A stretch of DNA of 42,540 nucleotides, from assembly GCA_016926255.1 (NCBI GenBank), contig JAFGOY010000021.1:1-42540 (forward strand). Reading direction: 5' to 3'. Positions 2,815 to 41,724 of the stretch are shown here, one piece after another. Position 1 is the first letter of the stretch; every line of letters starts with the position of its first letter. The notes under the pieces were generated by a model, which was not told the origin of the DNA, ran no database searches, and worked only from the letters and a program-made list of their open reading frames with translations. Made by a program: the position numbers and the translations under genes. The stretch comes from Anaerolineae bacterium. Lineage in GTDB: Bacteria; Chloroflexota; Anaerolineae; Aggregatilineales; UBA3940.

Positions 2815-3813
2815 TCAGCGCCCCACAATATTCGCCCGCAGCGCCTCGATCAGCAGTTCCAGCCCATCGGTGTAGCCGTCCCGAAAGTCGATATGCTGTA
2901 ACCGGCTGAGTCGATACGGCATTTCTTCCATCTTGAAATCATCGGACAGGACGGGCACGATGGTTTTCTTGTTCTGCAGGAAGTAGTGATACTCGTCGGC
3001 CACGTTGTCCGAGCAGCAGGACTCACCGGTCAGGATCAGCAGCATCACCGTCGATGTCATCAATGCCTGCTGGATCGTCCGATCCCACCGGTCACCGGGA
3101 CGGATGCGCAGTTGATCGATCCAGACGTTGAACTGCCTTCCAATCAGGTCATCGGCGATCCGCATCGCCGTCGATTCGTCCCGCCGCGCGTAGCTCACAA
3201 ACACCAGCGGCTCATCGCGGGCCGCAGTCTGCTCTACCCGTGCCGCCATCTCTACCGACGGCGCAAGGATGTTGATCGCGCTCTGCACCGCCGGATGTTC
3301 CCTAAGCATGATCGCCAGTTCATCCGCCATCACATCGACCCGGTTTTCTCTTCGCTCGATGAATGTAATTTTCTTCAACGTGGGCGGGTATTCACCGTCG
3401 TTGATCGCATGGGCGATGCCCAGCAGTTCGGCGCGAAAGGCTTCTCTTGTATCCAGCCCGTATCCGGCCCCGTGCAGGGTGACCGCCATGTGTGTGACAG
3501 GCTCCGGGGCGATCTGTAACGCGGCGACGAAATTGTAGCCAAGCTCTCGGATCCCCATGTAGTCCACTTCGCGCAGGCGCGGAGTCCCCACGACCAGGAG
3601 TTGCTTCGCGGCGATTATCCCCTCCGGATCGACATAGACCACTTCCCCCGCCAGTGGTTGAACCTCACTCAGTCCGGGATGCCCGTTCTTCGTCAGGGTG
3701 TTGTTCACGGCAATTGCCACGCCGTGATAAGCCCTGGAATACTTCAACGCAAGTACATCTGCATCGAATGAAAGCGCGTCCTCGTTGACCACTTCGATGG
3801 GAATCTCATTCAT
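2815..3813 (-). CDS. Macro-like/TIR domain protein
   Basis: The protein has 332 residues. The ATG at 3813 is chosen because AGGAG lies seven bases upstream; an earlier in-frame ATG at 3840 lacks such a site and would overlap the preceding gene. Residues 202-328 form a TIR domain: LVFVSYARRDE, then VWIDQLRIRPGDRWD, TVMLLILT, and ADEYHYFLQNKKTIVPVL, whose Glu274 is at the place of the NADase glutamate. Residues 1-175 have a macro/leucyl-aminopeptidase-N-like pattern (DADVLALKYS, KQLLVVGTP, VTHMAVTLHGAGYGLD) found ahead of TIR in other Chloroflexota proteins; this assignment is from memory of the family and is tentative. TIR domains often cleave NAD+ in phage defence. It is the last gene of an HD-methyltransferase-TIR operon, 10 bases after the methyltransferase stop. 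Confidence 0.85.
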   Translation of the reverse strand: MNEIPIEVVNEDALSFDADVLALKYSRAYHGVAIAVNNTLTKNGHPGLSEVQPLAGEVVYVDPEGIIAAKQLLVVGTPRLREVDYMGIRELGYNFVAALQIAPEPVTHMAVTLHGAGYGLDTREAFRAELLGIAHAINDGEYPPTLKKITFIERRENRVDVMADELAIMLREHPAVQSAINILAPSVEMAARVEQTAARDEPLVFVSYARRDESTAMRIADDLIGRQFNVWIDQLRIRPGDRWDRTIQQALMTSTVMLLILTGESCCSDNVADEYHYFLQNKKTIVPVLSDDFKMEEMPYRLSRLQHIDFRDGYTDGLELLIEALRANIVGR

Positions 3814-3823
3814 CGAATCGCTC

Positions 3824-4549
3824 CTATGTACCGGACTCATCCGGCCTGATCCCGGCAAAAACGGCCAGTTCGGCTATCTTCAGGTAGACATCAACTTCTA
3901 CAAACCCGATCCGGCGAAGCCACCCACATTGATCCTCAACCGGGGCCAGGATATTGTCATCTTTATCTTTTCTGTTGTGGAAGGCTTCCGCCACTTCCTC
4001 GCGTGTGGTACCTTCTTCACTTTGCCCATAAATCGTATCGATCAACATATCGTTGAACAGCCGCTCCCCTAACGACCCCCGCGAGGCAACATGCTCGACA
4101 TTGATGAAAATCCCACCCGGATTGAGCATTTCGAAGATGTCTTCGTAGAGACGCTGTTTCGCTTCATGCGGAACATGGTGAATCGCATACCGCGAGGCAA
4201 TCACGTCGAACCCCGGAGCGATGTCTTTCTGCCAGCCCGCTTCGCCAAAATCGGCAAGGCGATAGCTTGTCGCTGGCGGCTGGGGTGGGAGTATAGCCGT
4301 CGCAGCTTCAAGCATTGGTTCAGAATAATCGACAAAAACCAGTGTGCATTCAGGATAGACCGATCGAATGCTTCGCCCGACGATACCATCCCCGCAGCCG
4401 ATATCCAGCACACGTGACACCCCGGATTGAGTTGTCTCGATCAGCCGCATCATGATCTCAATCTGCTGTTCTGCCAGTGGCAGCAGTTGTCGAATACCTC
4501 CCAGGTAGCTTCTGATGACATCTGACTTTTTCCACGCATTTCGATGCAT
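3824..4549 (-). CDS. Class I SAM-dependent methyltransferase
   Basis: The protein has 241 residues and a Rossmann-type methyltransferase fold. Motif I is VLDIGCGDGIVGRSI (about residues 47-61), the acidic residue after beta-2 is in VFVDYSE, and the post-motif region is FDVIASRYAIHHVPHE, followed by LNPGGIFINVEH. The central motifs are those of UbiE/Methyltransf_11-12 enzymes acting on small molecules. The substrate cannot be told. AAGGGA lies about nine bases before the ATG. The gene starts 33 bases after the HD gene and ends 10 bases before the TIR gene, so the three are probably co-transcribed. Confidence 0.88.
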   Translation of the reverse strand: MHRNAWKKSDVIRSYLGGIRQLLPLAEQQIEIMMRLIETTQSGVSRVLDIGCGDGIVGRSIRSVYPECTLVFVDYSEPMLEAATAILPPQPPATSYRLADFGEAGWQKDIAPGFDVIASRYAIHHVPHEAKQRLYEDIFEMLNPGGIFINVEHVASRGSLGERLFNDMLIDTIYGQSEEGTTREEVAEAFHNRKDKDDNILAPVEDQCGWLRRIGFVEVDVYLKIAELAVFAGIRPDESGT

Positions 4550-4582
4550 GAAACTATCCCTTATTTTTCATCCACATCAAGC

Positions 4583-5173
4583 CTACTCGCCGATGATCCC
4601 CTGTCTCAGGGCAGCATTCAGCACCGTCTCGAAAATATCCGGTGAAGTGATTCGTCTGGTCGCATTCCAGAGATCGTGGCTGGCCTGCAAAGCCCGGTGC
4701 GCGGCAGCGGTTCGAAGATGCCGCTTATCCAGATCGAATATCCGCCACCGGTCGAGGCCGTCCGAATCCTTGAACACCTTGAGATCGTCTGTCATCTCTG
4801 GCGCAAGATTGTCGTCTGGCACATGCCAGCGGCACAGGTACACAATCTGCTCGACCGGCATCGACTCCGGGAAATCTTCCCGGTGATCTTCCAGCCACGC
4901 TGCCGCCCGTTCCCCGTGCTGACGATCGCGCCCGTCACTCCAGCGCTGTGTATCGTGGATCACCGATGCCCATGCCAGCGCATCAGCATCGACAGTCATC
5001 CCCTCATCCCGAACCATCTGCGCCAGCACCTGCGTCCAGATCAGGACGCGGGTCATGTGCGCCATGCCGTGAATCCCCCCCACCGGTCTGATCGACCACT
5101 CCGCGCGCGGTTTGTATTTCATTAACTTGCTTAACGACACCTGTGAAACAAACCCATCGATCACAATATCCAC
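4583..5173 (-). CDS. HD-domain metal-dependent hydrolase
   Basis: The ORF gives 196 residues. It shows the HD-superfamily metal ligands in order: GIHGMAHMTRV (His), WASVIHDTQRW (the His-Asp pair), QHGERAAAW and LCRWHVPDD (His), then KDSDGLDRWR (Asp). HD enzymes hydrolyse phosphate esters, commonly of nucleotides, but the substrate here is unknown. The start is unsure: the longest frame begins with GTG at 5173 and has no clear ribosome site, and an internal ATG (MKYKPRAEW) lies 17 codons later at 5122. It is the first gene of the operon with the methyltransferase and TIR genes, and diverges from the DUF1349 gene. Confidence 0.82.
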   Translation of the reverse strand: MDIVIDGFVSQVSLSKLMKYKPRAEWSIRPVGGIHGMAHMTRVLIWTQVLAQMVRDEGMTVDADALAWASVIHDTQRWSDGRDRQHGERAAAWLEDHREDFPESMPVEQIVYLCRWHVPDDNLAPEMTDDLKVFKDSDGLDRWRIFDLDKRHLRTAAAHRALQASHDLWNATRRITSPDIFETVLNAALRQGIIGE

Positions 5174-38289: not shown

Positions 38290-41200
38290 ATGGCGCAGCG
38301 CATAATGGTCGATCATTACGAGGTCACGTCTGAGATCGGGCGCGGCACGATGTCGGTCGTCTACCGGGCCGATGACCTGCGCAACGACCGCCCGGTAGCG
38401 CTCAAGCTGCTCCCCCGCGAACTCTACGCCGATATCGCCGTGCGGACGCGCTTCGAGCAGGTAGCGCAGGCATTGACGACCATCGAGCACCCGGCGATTG
38501 TTCCCGTATACAGCTTCGGCGAATTCAACAACCAGCCCTACCTGGTGATGCCCTATATGGAGGGCGCACCCTTCGCCTGCCAGTTAGAACTCGGCCCATT
38601 TTCGATCAACGAGGCGGTAGGCTATATCGAGCGGCTGGCCCCCGCCTTGCAGTTTGCCCACGACGCCGGGCTGATCCACCGCAACATCAAACCATCGAAT
38701 GTGTTGTTCGACGATGAGGGCAGTCCTTATCTCTCCGATTTTGGCCTGATCGCCTTCGGGCGGCCTTTCGCCCAGATATCAGGCCATATTGTCGTCGGGA
38801 CGCCCGAATATATCGCGCCGGAGCTGGCCGAACCGGGAACAACCTCGCCGTTGGCCGATATATACGCGCTCGGCGTGCTGCTCTACAGGATGCTGTCCGG
38901 CCATCTGCCTTATGACGGCCATTCGGCCATCGAGATTTTCCGGGGGCACATCGAGAAGCCGGTGCCGAACCTGCGCACCGACCGCCCCGATCTGCCGGAA
39001 GCGGTGCAGCAGGTCCTGCTGGGTGCGATGGCAAAAGACCCCTCCGACCGGTATCAAAGCCCGATGGAGATGCAGGAAAACCTGCTCAACATGATGAGCA
39101 GGATCGGGATGACCGCGTCAGAAGCGGGGGCCATCCCGGTCTATATTCAACCGTCCAGGCTCGAACCAACCACCGCACAGGAGCCGACCTTCGGGCAGTA
39201 TGACACGATCCCCGAATGGTACGAAGAAGAGATGTCGACGACGAGGGACATCCAGGTTGGGCTGACATCAAGCCAGCCTGACCGCGCGCCGACTATACCG
39301 CGTGGTGTCGGCGAGGCACCAGCCGCCGAACCGTCCCTCGAACCGCGCAGACGGCGCAGGCGATCGGACGAGCGCCGGGCGATCGGGAACTGGCGTGCGG
39401 CCCAGGCCCGGCGTGCGGGTGCCAACGAGTTCTTCGTCAGGCTGGCCGGGTTTACCATGCCACCGGCGCTGGCCCTGTCGATGGTGGGCGTGATGCTGGC
39501 TGTCATGGCGATCTGGTTCCGGATCACTTTCCAGCCATATTGGGACGATATAAAAATCTGGCTAGGCATGGCAACCCCGCCCCCGGACATCGAGGAATCG
39601 CTGGCCGATGCCTATCCAACACCGGTTCCGGTGCCCACCGTCCTGCCGACGGCGGTGCCATTCCTCCAGGCGGTGCAGGCACACAGCGGTCCGGTGACCG
39701 CCCTGGCTTACGATCCGGTCGGTGGGCGGGTGGCTTCCTCCGGTGAAGATCACCAGATCATTCTCTGGAAAACGGGGGCAGATGGCATCAGCCAGTCATT
39801 GACATTGACCGGACACCGGTCAGGGGTGACCGACCTGAGCTTTTCGCCGGACGGCTCCCAACTGGCATCGGTGGGGATTAGGGGCACGGTGCGCATCTGG
39901 GATACCGCGACGGGCACAGCGCTGCTGGCCCTGGGAGGTGAATTCAACCAGCAGGTCAATGCGGTGGCCTGGTCGGCTGATGGTCGGTACCTGGTGGCTG
40001 GGGGCAACGAAGGGCTGCTGGTCGCCTGGGATGTAACCAGCCTCACCGATTACGAACGGGTGCTGTACCAGCCGTTGAACCGGGGGCCAATCGAGGCGCT
40101 CGCCTTTAACGGGAACACGACGCTGCTGGTCGGCGTTGGCTACCTTGAAGACAACCACCTGCTGACGATGGACATCACGCGCGGGACGATCAGCCGGGAA
40201 GTGCTGATCGACTCAGCAATCCACGACCTGGCACTGAACCCCGACGGCGACACGCTCTACATATCGACCGACTCCGGCCTGCGGGCGATTGACCCGGCGT
40301 CGGGGGCACCGGCAGCGGGCGAGATCGATGACCGGGCATTTACCGATTCGGCAGTCGCACCGGACGGCCTGATAGTAGCCGGGGCAACCGGTGAAACATC
40401 GACCAGCCTGTGGGAACTGGCGAGCGGGATGCGGATCAGGCAGTACCCGCAGGAGACGATATCCGCTGCGGCCAGCGGCGGTGATCAGCCAGTGACAGCT
40501 GCGGTGGTGACCGCAGTTGTATGGACGGACGACGATCAACTGGTGACCGGGTGGAGCGACGGGGTGGTCACGGCCTGGGATTTGCTCTCGACGGCCTATG
40601 GCCCACCTGCGGGCGTGGTCGAGGCCGAGATCGACGCCTCGACGGCGGCGCTGATCGAGGAACCGGTGCTGCGGCTGGGCGGCCTGTCCTACCCGGTGCA
40701 GTCGCTTGGATTCAGCCCGGACGGATCGCTGCTGGTAGCCGGATCGCAGGGCGGGCGGCTGTTGATGTGGGATACCGAAACCGGGCAGCCCTACCCCACT
40801 CTGGTCGAGGCTAACGTACGGATGAACGGAGCGGCCTTCCACCCGTCGGGGGGCTGGCTGGTGTCGGTATCGGAAGACGGATACGGCATCGACATACGGG
40901 ATGTGTTGAGCGGCGATGTGCTGGTCACGCAGCCGGTCGACGAGGGCTTCGAGATCGATAGTGTGACCTGGTCATCCGATGGAAAACTGCTGGCGGTCGG
41001 GCTGCGCTCGAACACCGTGTTCCGCGACGACCCGTTCTGCAAGGAGAACCCGAACTGCCTGTGTGATGAGAGCGGTCTGGTCTGCCCGGAGGGCAGCGAA
41101 CCGACCAGCGACAGCCTGTGCCAGGAAACCCCGGACTGCTACTGCCTGGGCGTGGATCGCTACTGCGATCAGGGTCGGGTGCTGTTCTGGCAGTGGGATG

Positions 41201-41724
41201 GCGCAGCACTTTCCGATCCACAGCATCTCCAGGCTTCCAACGCCGGGGCAGTGGCCGACGTGGTAATCAGCCCGGATCGAACGGCAGCAGCAGCGGCCTT
41301 TGACGGGCTGTACCGGGAACTTGTGATCTGGTCGCTGGAAAGCGGCGAGGTGACCGGGATGCTTCAGGCCGATTATACAGTTGGTGGGCTGGCATGGTCT
41401 GACAGTGGGCTGGCGGTTGCGCATGGAACGGGCCTGGACATCATCAACATGGAGACGGGTGACCTGGTCAAACAGATACCCGCAGGGGAAGAAAACGGGT
41501 TCCGAAGTGCCGCGTGGAACCCATCAGGCGAACTGCTGGCCGGGGGAATGATCGGCGGGGAAGTGATGATCGTCGATGCCCAGGGCGAAGAAATCACGAC
41601 GCTGAGTTTGCCGGATGACGAATACCAGGGGCCGGTCGACCGGCTGGCTTTTTCTCCCGATGGGCGGCTGCTCGCCGCAGGAATGGACAACGGGATGGTC
41701 GTGCTGTGGGGCGTGGTGGAGTAA
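38290..41724 (+). CDS. Membrane Ser/Thr kinase (HRN-type) with WD40 propellers
   Basis: The protein has 1144 residues. The kinase domain (about 10-270) has IGRGTMSVVYRA, the lysine in VALKLL (Lys39), SDFGLI (Asp150) and GTPEYIAPE. In the catalytic loop, however, it reads LIHRNIKPSN, with Asn132 (codon AAC at 38683-38685) in place of the catalytic Asp. This suggests a pseudokinase or greatly weakened enzyme. A basic linker (RRRRRRSDERR-like, about 355-365) precedes one membrane helix (about 391-412). The outer part (about 455-1144) has about fourteen WD40 blades, enough for two propellers. An insertion at about 917-959 has eight cysteines in two C-x5-C-x-C-x6-C units. It probably senses something outside and signals through protein binding. 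Confidence 0.93.
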   Translation: MAQRIMVDHYEVTSEIGRGTMSVVYRADDLRNDRPVALKLLPRELYADIAVRTRFEQVAQALTTIEHPAIVPVYSFGEFNNQPYLVMPYMEGAPFACQLELGPFSINEAVGYIERLAPALQFAHDAGLIHRNIKPSNVLFDDEGSPYLSDFGLIAFGRPFAQISGHIVVGTPEYIAPELAEPGTTSPLADIYALGVLLYRMLSGHLPYDGHSAIEIFRGHIEKPVPNLRTDRPDLPEAVQQVLLGAMAKDPSDRYQSPMEMQENLLNMMSRIGMTASEAGAIPVYIQPSRLEPTTAQEPTFGQYDTIPEWYEEEMSTTRDIQVGLTSSQPDRAPTIPRGVGEAPAAEPSLEPRRRRRRSDERRAIGNWRAAQARRAGANEFFVRLAGFTMPPALALSMVGVMLAVMAIWFRITFQPYWDDIKIWLGMATPPPDIEESLADAYPTPVPVPTVLPTAVPFLQAVQAHSGPVTALAYDPVGGRVASSGEDHQIILWKTGADGISQSLTLTGHRSGVTDLSFSPDGSQLASVGIRGTVRIWDTATGTALLALGGEFNQQVNAVAWSADGRYLVAGGNEGLLVAWDVTSLTDYERVLYQPLNRGPIEALAFNGNTTLLVGVGYLEDNHLLTMDITRGTISREVLIDSAIHDLALNPDGDTLYISTDSGLRAIDPASGAPAAGEIDDRAFTDSAVAPDGLIVAGATGETSTSLWELASGMRIRQYPQETISAAASGGDQPVTAAVVTAVVWTDDDQLVTGWSDGVVTAWDLLSTAYGPPAGVVEAEIDASTAALIEEPVLRLGGLSYPVQSLGFSPDGSLLVAGSQGGRLLMWDTETGQPYPTLVEANVRMNGAAFHPSGGWLVSVSEDGYGIDIRDVLSGDVLVTQPVDEGFEIDSVTWSSDGKLLAVGLRSNTVFRDDPFCKENPNCLCDESGLVCPEGSEPTSDSLCQETPDCYCLGVDRYCDQGRVLFWQWDGAALSDPQHLQASNAGAVADVVISPDRTAAAAAFDGLYRELVIWSLESGEVTGMLQADYTVGGLAWSDSGLAVAHGTGLDIINMETGDLVKQIPAGEENGFRSAAWNPSGELLAGGMIGGEVMIVDAQGEEITTLSLPDDEYQGPVDRLAFSPDGRLLAAGMDNGMVVLWGVVE
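41038..41166 (+). other. Twin cysteine module inside the WD40 region
   Basis: Within the kinase-WD40 gene, two units follow the exact spacing C-x5-C-x-C-x6-C: CKENPNCLCDESGLVC and CQETPDCYCLGVDRYC, separated by 11 residues. Outside the membrane they would probably form disulfides, or they could bind metal. Confidence 0.75.

Follow-up and report, generated by a model that had tools for sequence, protein, structure and literature searches.

The minus-strand gene at 2815..3813 of the window, by which we mean the whole 42,540-nucleotide stretch of an Anaerolineae bacterium contig that was analysed, encodes a TIR protein of 332 residues composed of a macro/M17-N-like domain (residues 1–175), a linker (residues 176–200) and a TIR domain (residues 201–330). 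We consider it an even chance that this protein is a self-contained N-glycosidase controlled by its ligand-binding macro-like domain. The fusion is real and somewhat unusual; no description of an M17-N/TIR fusion was found in the open-access literature searched.

The N-terminal domain (3289..3813, minus strand) belongs to a family specific to the bacterial order. In an AlphaFold2 model built from ten window and locus sequences (mean pLDDT 76.5), residues ~1–175 match macroH2A1.1 (Z 18.4, rmsd 2.6, 165 aligned) and the N-terminal domain (PF02789) of the P. putida leucine aminopeptidase (Z 18.0, rmsd 2.4, 162 aligned). A previous interpretation made from the letters alone, referred to here as the sequence-only reading, had proposed a macro/M17-N-like fold at this end of the protein, and the model matches to macro domains and to leucine aminopeptidase N-terminal domains bear it out. 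The N-domain of the window protein itself has no Pfam match, and its comparison by hhalign with single macro and PepA sequences gave a weak match. The profile of its relatives matches Chloroflexota M17 aminopeptidases at up to 8e-15, which establishes homology to M17-N. When aligned with E. coli YmdB, the family keeps the macro-type QGD and the putative adenine-pocket Asp, while the catalytic motifs of the MacroD/YmdB type, NAAN and GGGVD, are lost. Residue D19 is nearly invariant in the family and aligns with an Asp of YmdB, which makes it a candidate for the adenine-contacting Asp that follows strand 2. At residue 11 the window protein has Glu in place of the family's Gly, giving NED instead of QGD. 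Such family motifs support the view of the N-domain as a putative ligand-binding, non-hydrolysing macro-like domain.

The TIR_2 domain spans about residues 201–331 (2821..3213, minus strand), and Pfam TIR_2 (PF13676) covers residues 204–321 with an E-value of 2.3e-24 (86.6 bits against a gathering cut-off of 28; profile positions 1–121 of 122). In a fold comparison, residues 201–330 of the model match TIR domains, with Z 17.9 to SPARTA, whose TIRs are also the best solved relatives by sequence. In contrast to SPARTA TIR-APAZ, the window protein has no APAZ or Argonaute, and its C-helix is shorter. Glu274 aligns with the Glu of WxxxE in six other TIRs and stands in catalytic register in the model, so that both the two domains and the glutamate at the NADase position are as the sequence-only reading guessed. 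That reading had missed the loss of the Trp of WxxxE, which is replaced by N270 (hence NxxxE) and is present in all 19 aligned relatives of the TIR-bearing architecture described below as type B. The loss makes a cyclic-ADPR product less credible: N270 speaks against strong synthesis of cyclic ADPR, and hydrolysis would be compatible with it (PMC11374754, PMC10937652). The W204A substitution lowers AbTir activity and W240 is dispensable in TcpC (PMC11374754); given the latter, the NxxxE TIR may still be active. By our own alignment reading, the window TIR has Phe at position 205, and not the Tyr of the NDT-resembling ThsB subfamily; at the equivalent position Phe characterizes NAD-cleaving TIRs and Tyr the NDTs, according to PMC11204291.

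In a first pass, the N-domain was searched for in 60 related genomes, 18 of which matched, a few through M17 peptidases only. A profile search at 1e-6 gave a match in 35 of the 154 genomes of the order; with G011 left out (an aminopeptidase-type match only), about 34 of the 154 remain, the window's own included. None of the eight other genomes of the window's own family contained the N-domain family in this profile search. One genome outside the order carried a member in the class sample, and no member was found outside the order in the phylum sample; the other matches in these samples are M17 aminopeptidases, or of aminopeptidase length, at about 1e-12 to 1e-15. The family is lineage-specific, being restricted to the order within Chloroflexota and nearly absent elsewhere. 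Genome contigs searched with P0001 gave no relative, and the same search with the type A alignment gave nine relatives, all of the DrHyd type; viral contigs searched with the N-domain alignment gave none.

Two architectures predominate among the chains read. In type A, the N-domain is followed by a DrHyd-like (nucleoside-deoxyribosyltransferase-like) domain with the motif NPNVYLEVGYAWG, and in type B the order is TIR, N-domain, DrHyd-like domain. The window protein, an N-domain followed by a TIR, is the sole chain of that order among those read. Unlike M17 leucyl aminopeptidases, the chains of this family carry no peptidase domain, their N-domain being fused to TIR or DrHyd-like domains instead.

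Because the macro-like domain filled the fold-search lists, the DrHyd assignment draws on weak profiles together with the motif. Pfam Nuc_deoxyrib_tr stays below its cut-off in the relatives (best 22.5 bits against 28.8), the TIR-effector profile in PADLOC is matched with an E-value of about 1e-11, and a search of the PDB with the DrHyd-like profile returned nine matches, consisting only of CMP hydrolases, NDT, Rcl/DNPH1 and BlsM (E 0.008 to 0.84). In the closest relatives the C-terminal domain has the Glu motif yLEvGyA, which likens it to the DrHyd/NDT superfamily (DNPH1/Rcl, MilB-type CMP hydrolase); the window protein differs in having a TIR in place of any DrHyd domain. All 16 complete chains that have no TIR possess the DrHyd-like catalytic Glu, and all 19 TIR-bearing chains have lost it (18 Gln, 1 Gly), L091 (incomplete at a contig end) and L076 1-952 (cut off at the locus edge; the complete type B gene to which it belongs is in L092) being excluded from the count. 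WxxxE is intact in the TIRs of all 19, and their other DrHyd motifs (FTGDI, FDVRGQR) are eroded as well. In ThsB the corresponding Glu-to-Gln substitution, E85Q, is an engineered mutant that is inactive (PMC10022894). Judging by these residues, every chain of the family apparently retains a single functional site for splitting NAD or a nucleotide. Since the TIR-bearing chains form almost one clade and represent few independent events, the pattern carries moderate weight. In the N-domain tree, 13 type A sequences and the window N-domain form one group (support 100/97). Given this position, the simplest account is that a TIR took the place of the DrHyd domain, and the window protein would be a DrHyd-type member with its C-terminal domain swapped.

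The mechanism that we propose builds on the modelled folds, the homology, the architectures, the Glu pattern, the tree position and the absence of conserved partners. The TIR would cut the N-glycosidic bond of NAD+, the presumed substrate, or of a related nucleotide by means of Glu274. The macro/M17-N-like domain, related to ADP-ribose-binding macro domains but itself non-catalytic, would bind a nucleotide, be it the substrate, the product or some other signal, and the nucleotide-bound domain may then set the activity or the assembly state of the TIR; we infer both the binding and this control step. DrHyd and TIR domains would be interchangeable catalytic partners in the family, with one active site kept per chain, and in the window lineage the DrHyd domain would have been exchanged for a TIR. 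TIR, DrHyd and SLOG form one Rossmannoid superfamily that cleaves N-glycosidic bonds, its inactive versions sensing nucleotides (PMC9503650), and in macro-type Thoeris both ADPR and imidazole adenine dinucleotide are ligands of the ThsA macro domain, which oligomerises (PMC11204291). A bolder version, which we regard as unlikely, is a one-polypeptide device in which an exchangeable TIR or DrHyd module makes an ADP-ribose-type nucleotide, the attached macro-like domain senses it, and the dead, Gln-bearing DrHyd domain serves as a second sensor in the three-domain relatives.

The alternative that fares best, though we hold it rather doubtful, assigns the family to housekeeping nucleotide or NAD metabolism or to stress regulation, as a nucleotide-turnover enzyme unrelated to phage. 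In genus g15 the N-domain gene lies in the same neighbourhood in five genomes, which indicates vertical inheritance in that genus and suits such a role, as does the proximity of relatives to genes for nucleotide or phosphate processing (LOG/SLOG, MazG, CYTH and metallophosphatase). However, the patchy presence reported above, with no member in the other genomes of the window's own family, is unusual for core metabolism, and so is domain swapping. The LOG/SLOG-cluster4 family gene at L099:7029-7640 overlaps the stop of the N-domain–DrHyd gene as ATGA, and a LOG/SLOG-family gene overlaps or lies within about 1.5 kb downstream in four genomes of one family (L099, L094, L038, L036/L100); it is a possible third partner in a TIR–DrHyd–SLOG set. 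At L038:5564-6562 a Nal1-like gene (weak Pfam match) stands between the N-domain gene and the LOG gene.

Less probable than a housekeeping role is a single-chain defence resembling type II Thoeris, in which infection would prompt the TIR to produce a signal of the ADP-ribose type, to be sensed by the macro-like domain of its own chain or of one next to it, leading to assembly and NAD loss. Type II Thoeris pairs a transmembrane, macro-domain ThsA with a TIR protein, ThsB, and thus uses a macro fold together with a TIR/NDT-like N-glycosidase; both folds occur in the one window chain, and its TIR matches defence TIR profiles. The two nevertheless differ, since Thoeris consists of adjacent thsA and thsB genes and the window protein is one fused chain with no transmembrane part. 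The macro domains of ThsA bind ADPR-type nucleotides (PMC11204291), whereas the nearest kin of the window's macro-like domain are in the M17-N branch. The scan of window genes covered a DUF1349 gene, a transporter, histidine kinases, a glycosyltransferase-like gene and a kinase-WD40 gene, and it showed no transmembrane effector, second gene, ThsA-like neighbour or defence gene. Phage records held no match for the window protein, plasmid matches were TIR-only, and the shared neighbourhood in g15 also speaks against this alternative. A defence role is possible but unsupported, because there is no defence island, synteny is vertical in one genus, and the motif is NxxxE and not WxxxE. A plasmid match from Ca. 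Chlorohelix (residues 108-323) was rejected as a family member, having an FHA-GAF-like N-terminus and no N-domain profile match. The window's own genome (G000) contains at least nine other TIR domains (for example in L002, L003 and L004); those read are N-terminal TIRs fused to transmembrane and beta-propeller-like, sulfatase-modifying-like or HEAT-like parts.

It is also improbable, slightly more so than the Thoeris-like defence, that the TIR has little or no catalytic activity and serves purely as an oligomerising scaffold, leaving the macro-like domain as the working part. The Asn in place of the WxxxE Trp and a low-confidence loop at residues 236-242 of the AlphaFold model would fit such a scaffold, but Glu274, F205 and the TIR_2 core are retained, the pattern in the family speaks for a single intact glycosidase site in each chain, and the N-domain lacks the macro catalytic motifs.

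That the HD, methyltransferase and TIR genes form one defence or signalling system, as the sequence-only reading had suggested from their common strand and short gaps, is very improbable, as the three were nowhere together in the genomes searched and the methyltransferase relatives lie mostly in leu operons. The three leftward genes themselves are real and arranged as that reading described. A class I SAM methyltransferase of 241 residues (3824..4549) and an HD-domain hydrolase-like protein of 196 residues, which lacks conserved neighbours (4583..5173), are encoded on the minus strand with the TIR protein, separated by gaps of 33 bases (4550-4582) and 10 bases (3814-3823). The TIR gene starts with ATG at 3813, preceded by AGGAG, a good ribosome-binding site; that of the methyltransferase gene is weaker, and the HD gene has a GTG start and no obvious site. 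The base composition of the three genes is ordinary relative to the rest of the window, and promoter and terminator scans gave signals no better than chance. On the same strand downstream, the gene at 645-2600 encodes VWA, a transmembrane stretch and a C-terminal FHA domain, with no match at 1e-20 in eight relatives. At 38290-41724 the window encodes a serine/threonine kinase fused to WD40 repeats (1144 aa).

The methyltransferase matches Methyltransf_25 (E 1.9e-15), and no ortholog was found at 1e-15 in the 60 related genomes. Of its four closest homologs (44-45% identity), three lie inside leuA-leuC-leuD operons and the fourth beside an acetyltransferase gene, the gene names being our own reading of the sequences; these contexts point to a metabolic substrate, and the window methyltransferase is probably unrelated to the TIR protein. 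In L122, L123 and L124 the uncharacterised methyltransferase (44-45% to 3824-4549) adjoins leuC/leuD in leucine-biosynthesis operons, suggesting that it acts on isopropylmalate- or aconitate-like acids. The HD protein (P0003) has no Pfam match itself; a relative with 39% identity scores above the Pfam HD cut-off (26.4 bits against 22), and H35, H39, H73-D74 and D136/138/141 are invariant in three sequences. That relative, the one clear case, lies beside a decarboxylase-like gene, and the 60 related genomes gave only two weak ones at 1e-3. At the N-domain loci for which neighbours were read, neither the methyltransferase nor the HD partner occurs. Thus, of the earlier proposal, the union of a macro/M17-N-like domain and a Glu-bearing TIR in one chain stands, and the HD and methyltransferase partners fall away; these two genes look like chance company, the true unit being the single chain.

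If the macro-like domain of this chain binds the product of the TIR, the window protein would condense the maker-plus-sensor logic of type II Thoeris into a single chain. The N-domain family as a whole amounts to a natural experiment on the question of functional equivalence between TIR and DrHyd domains.
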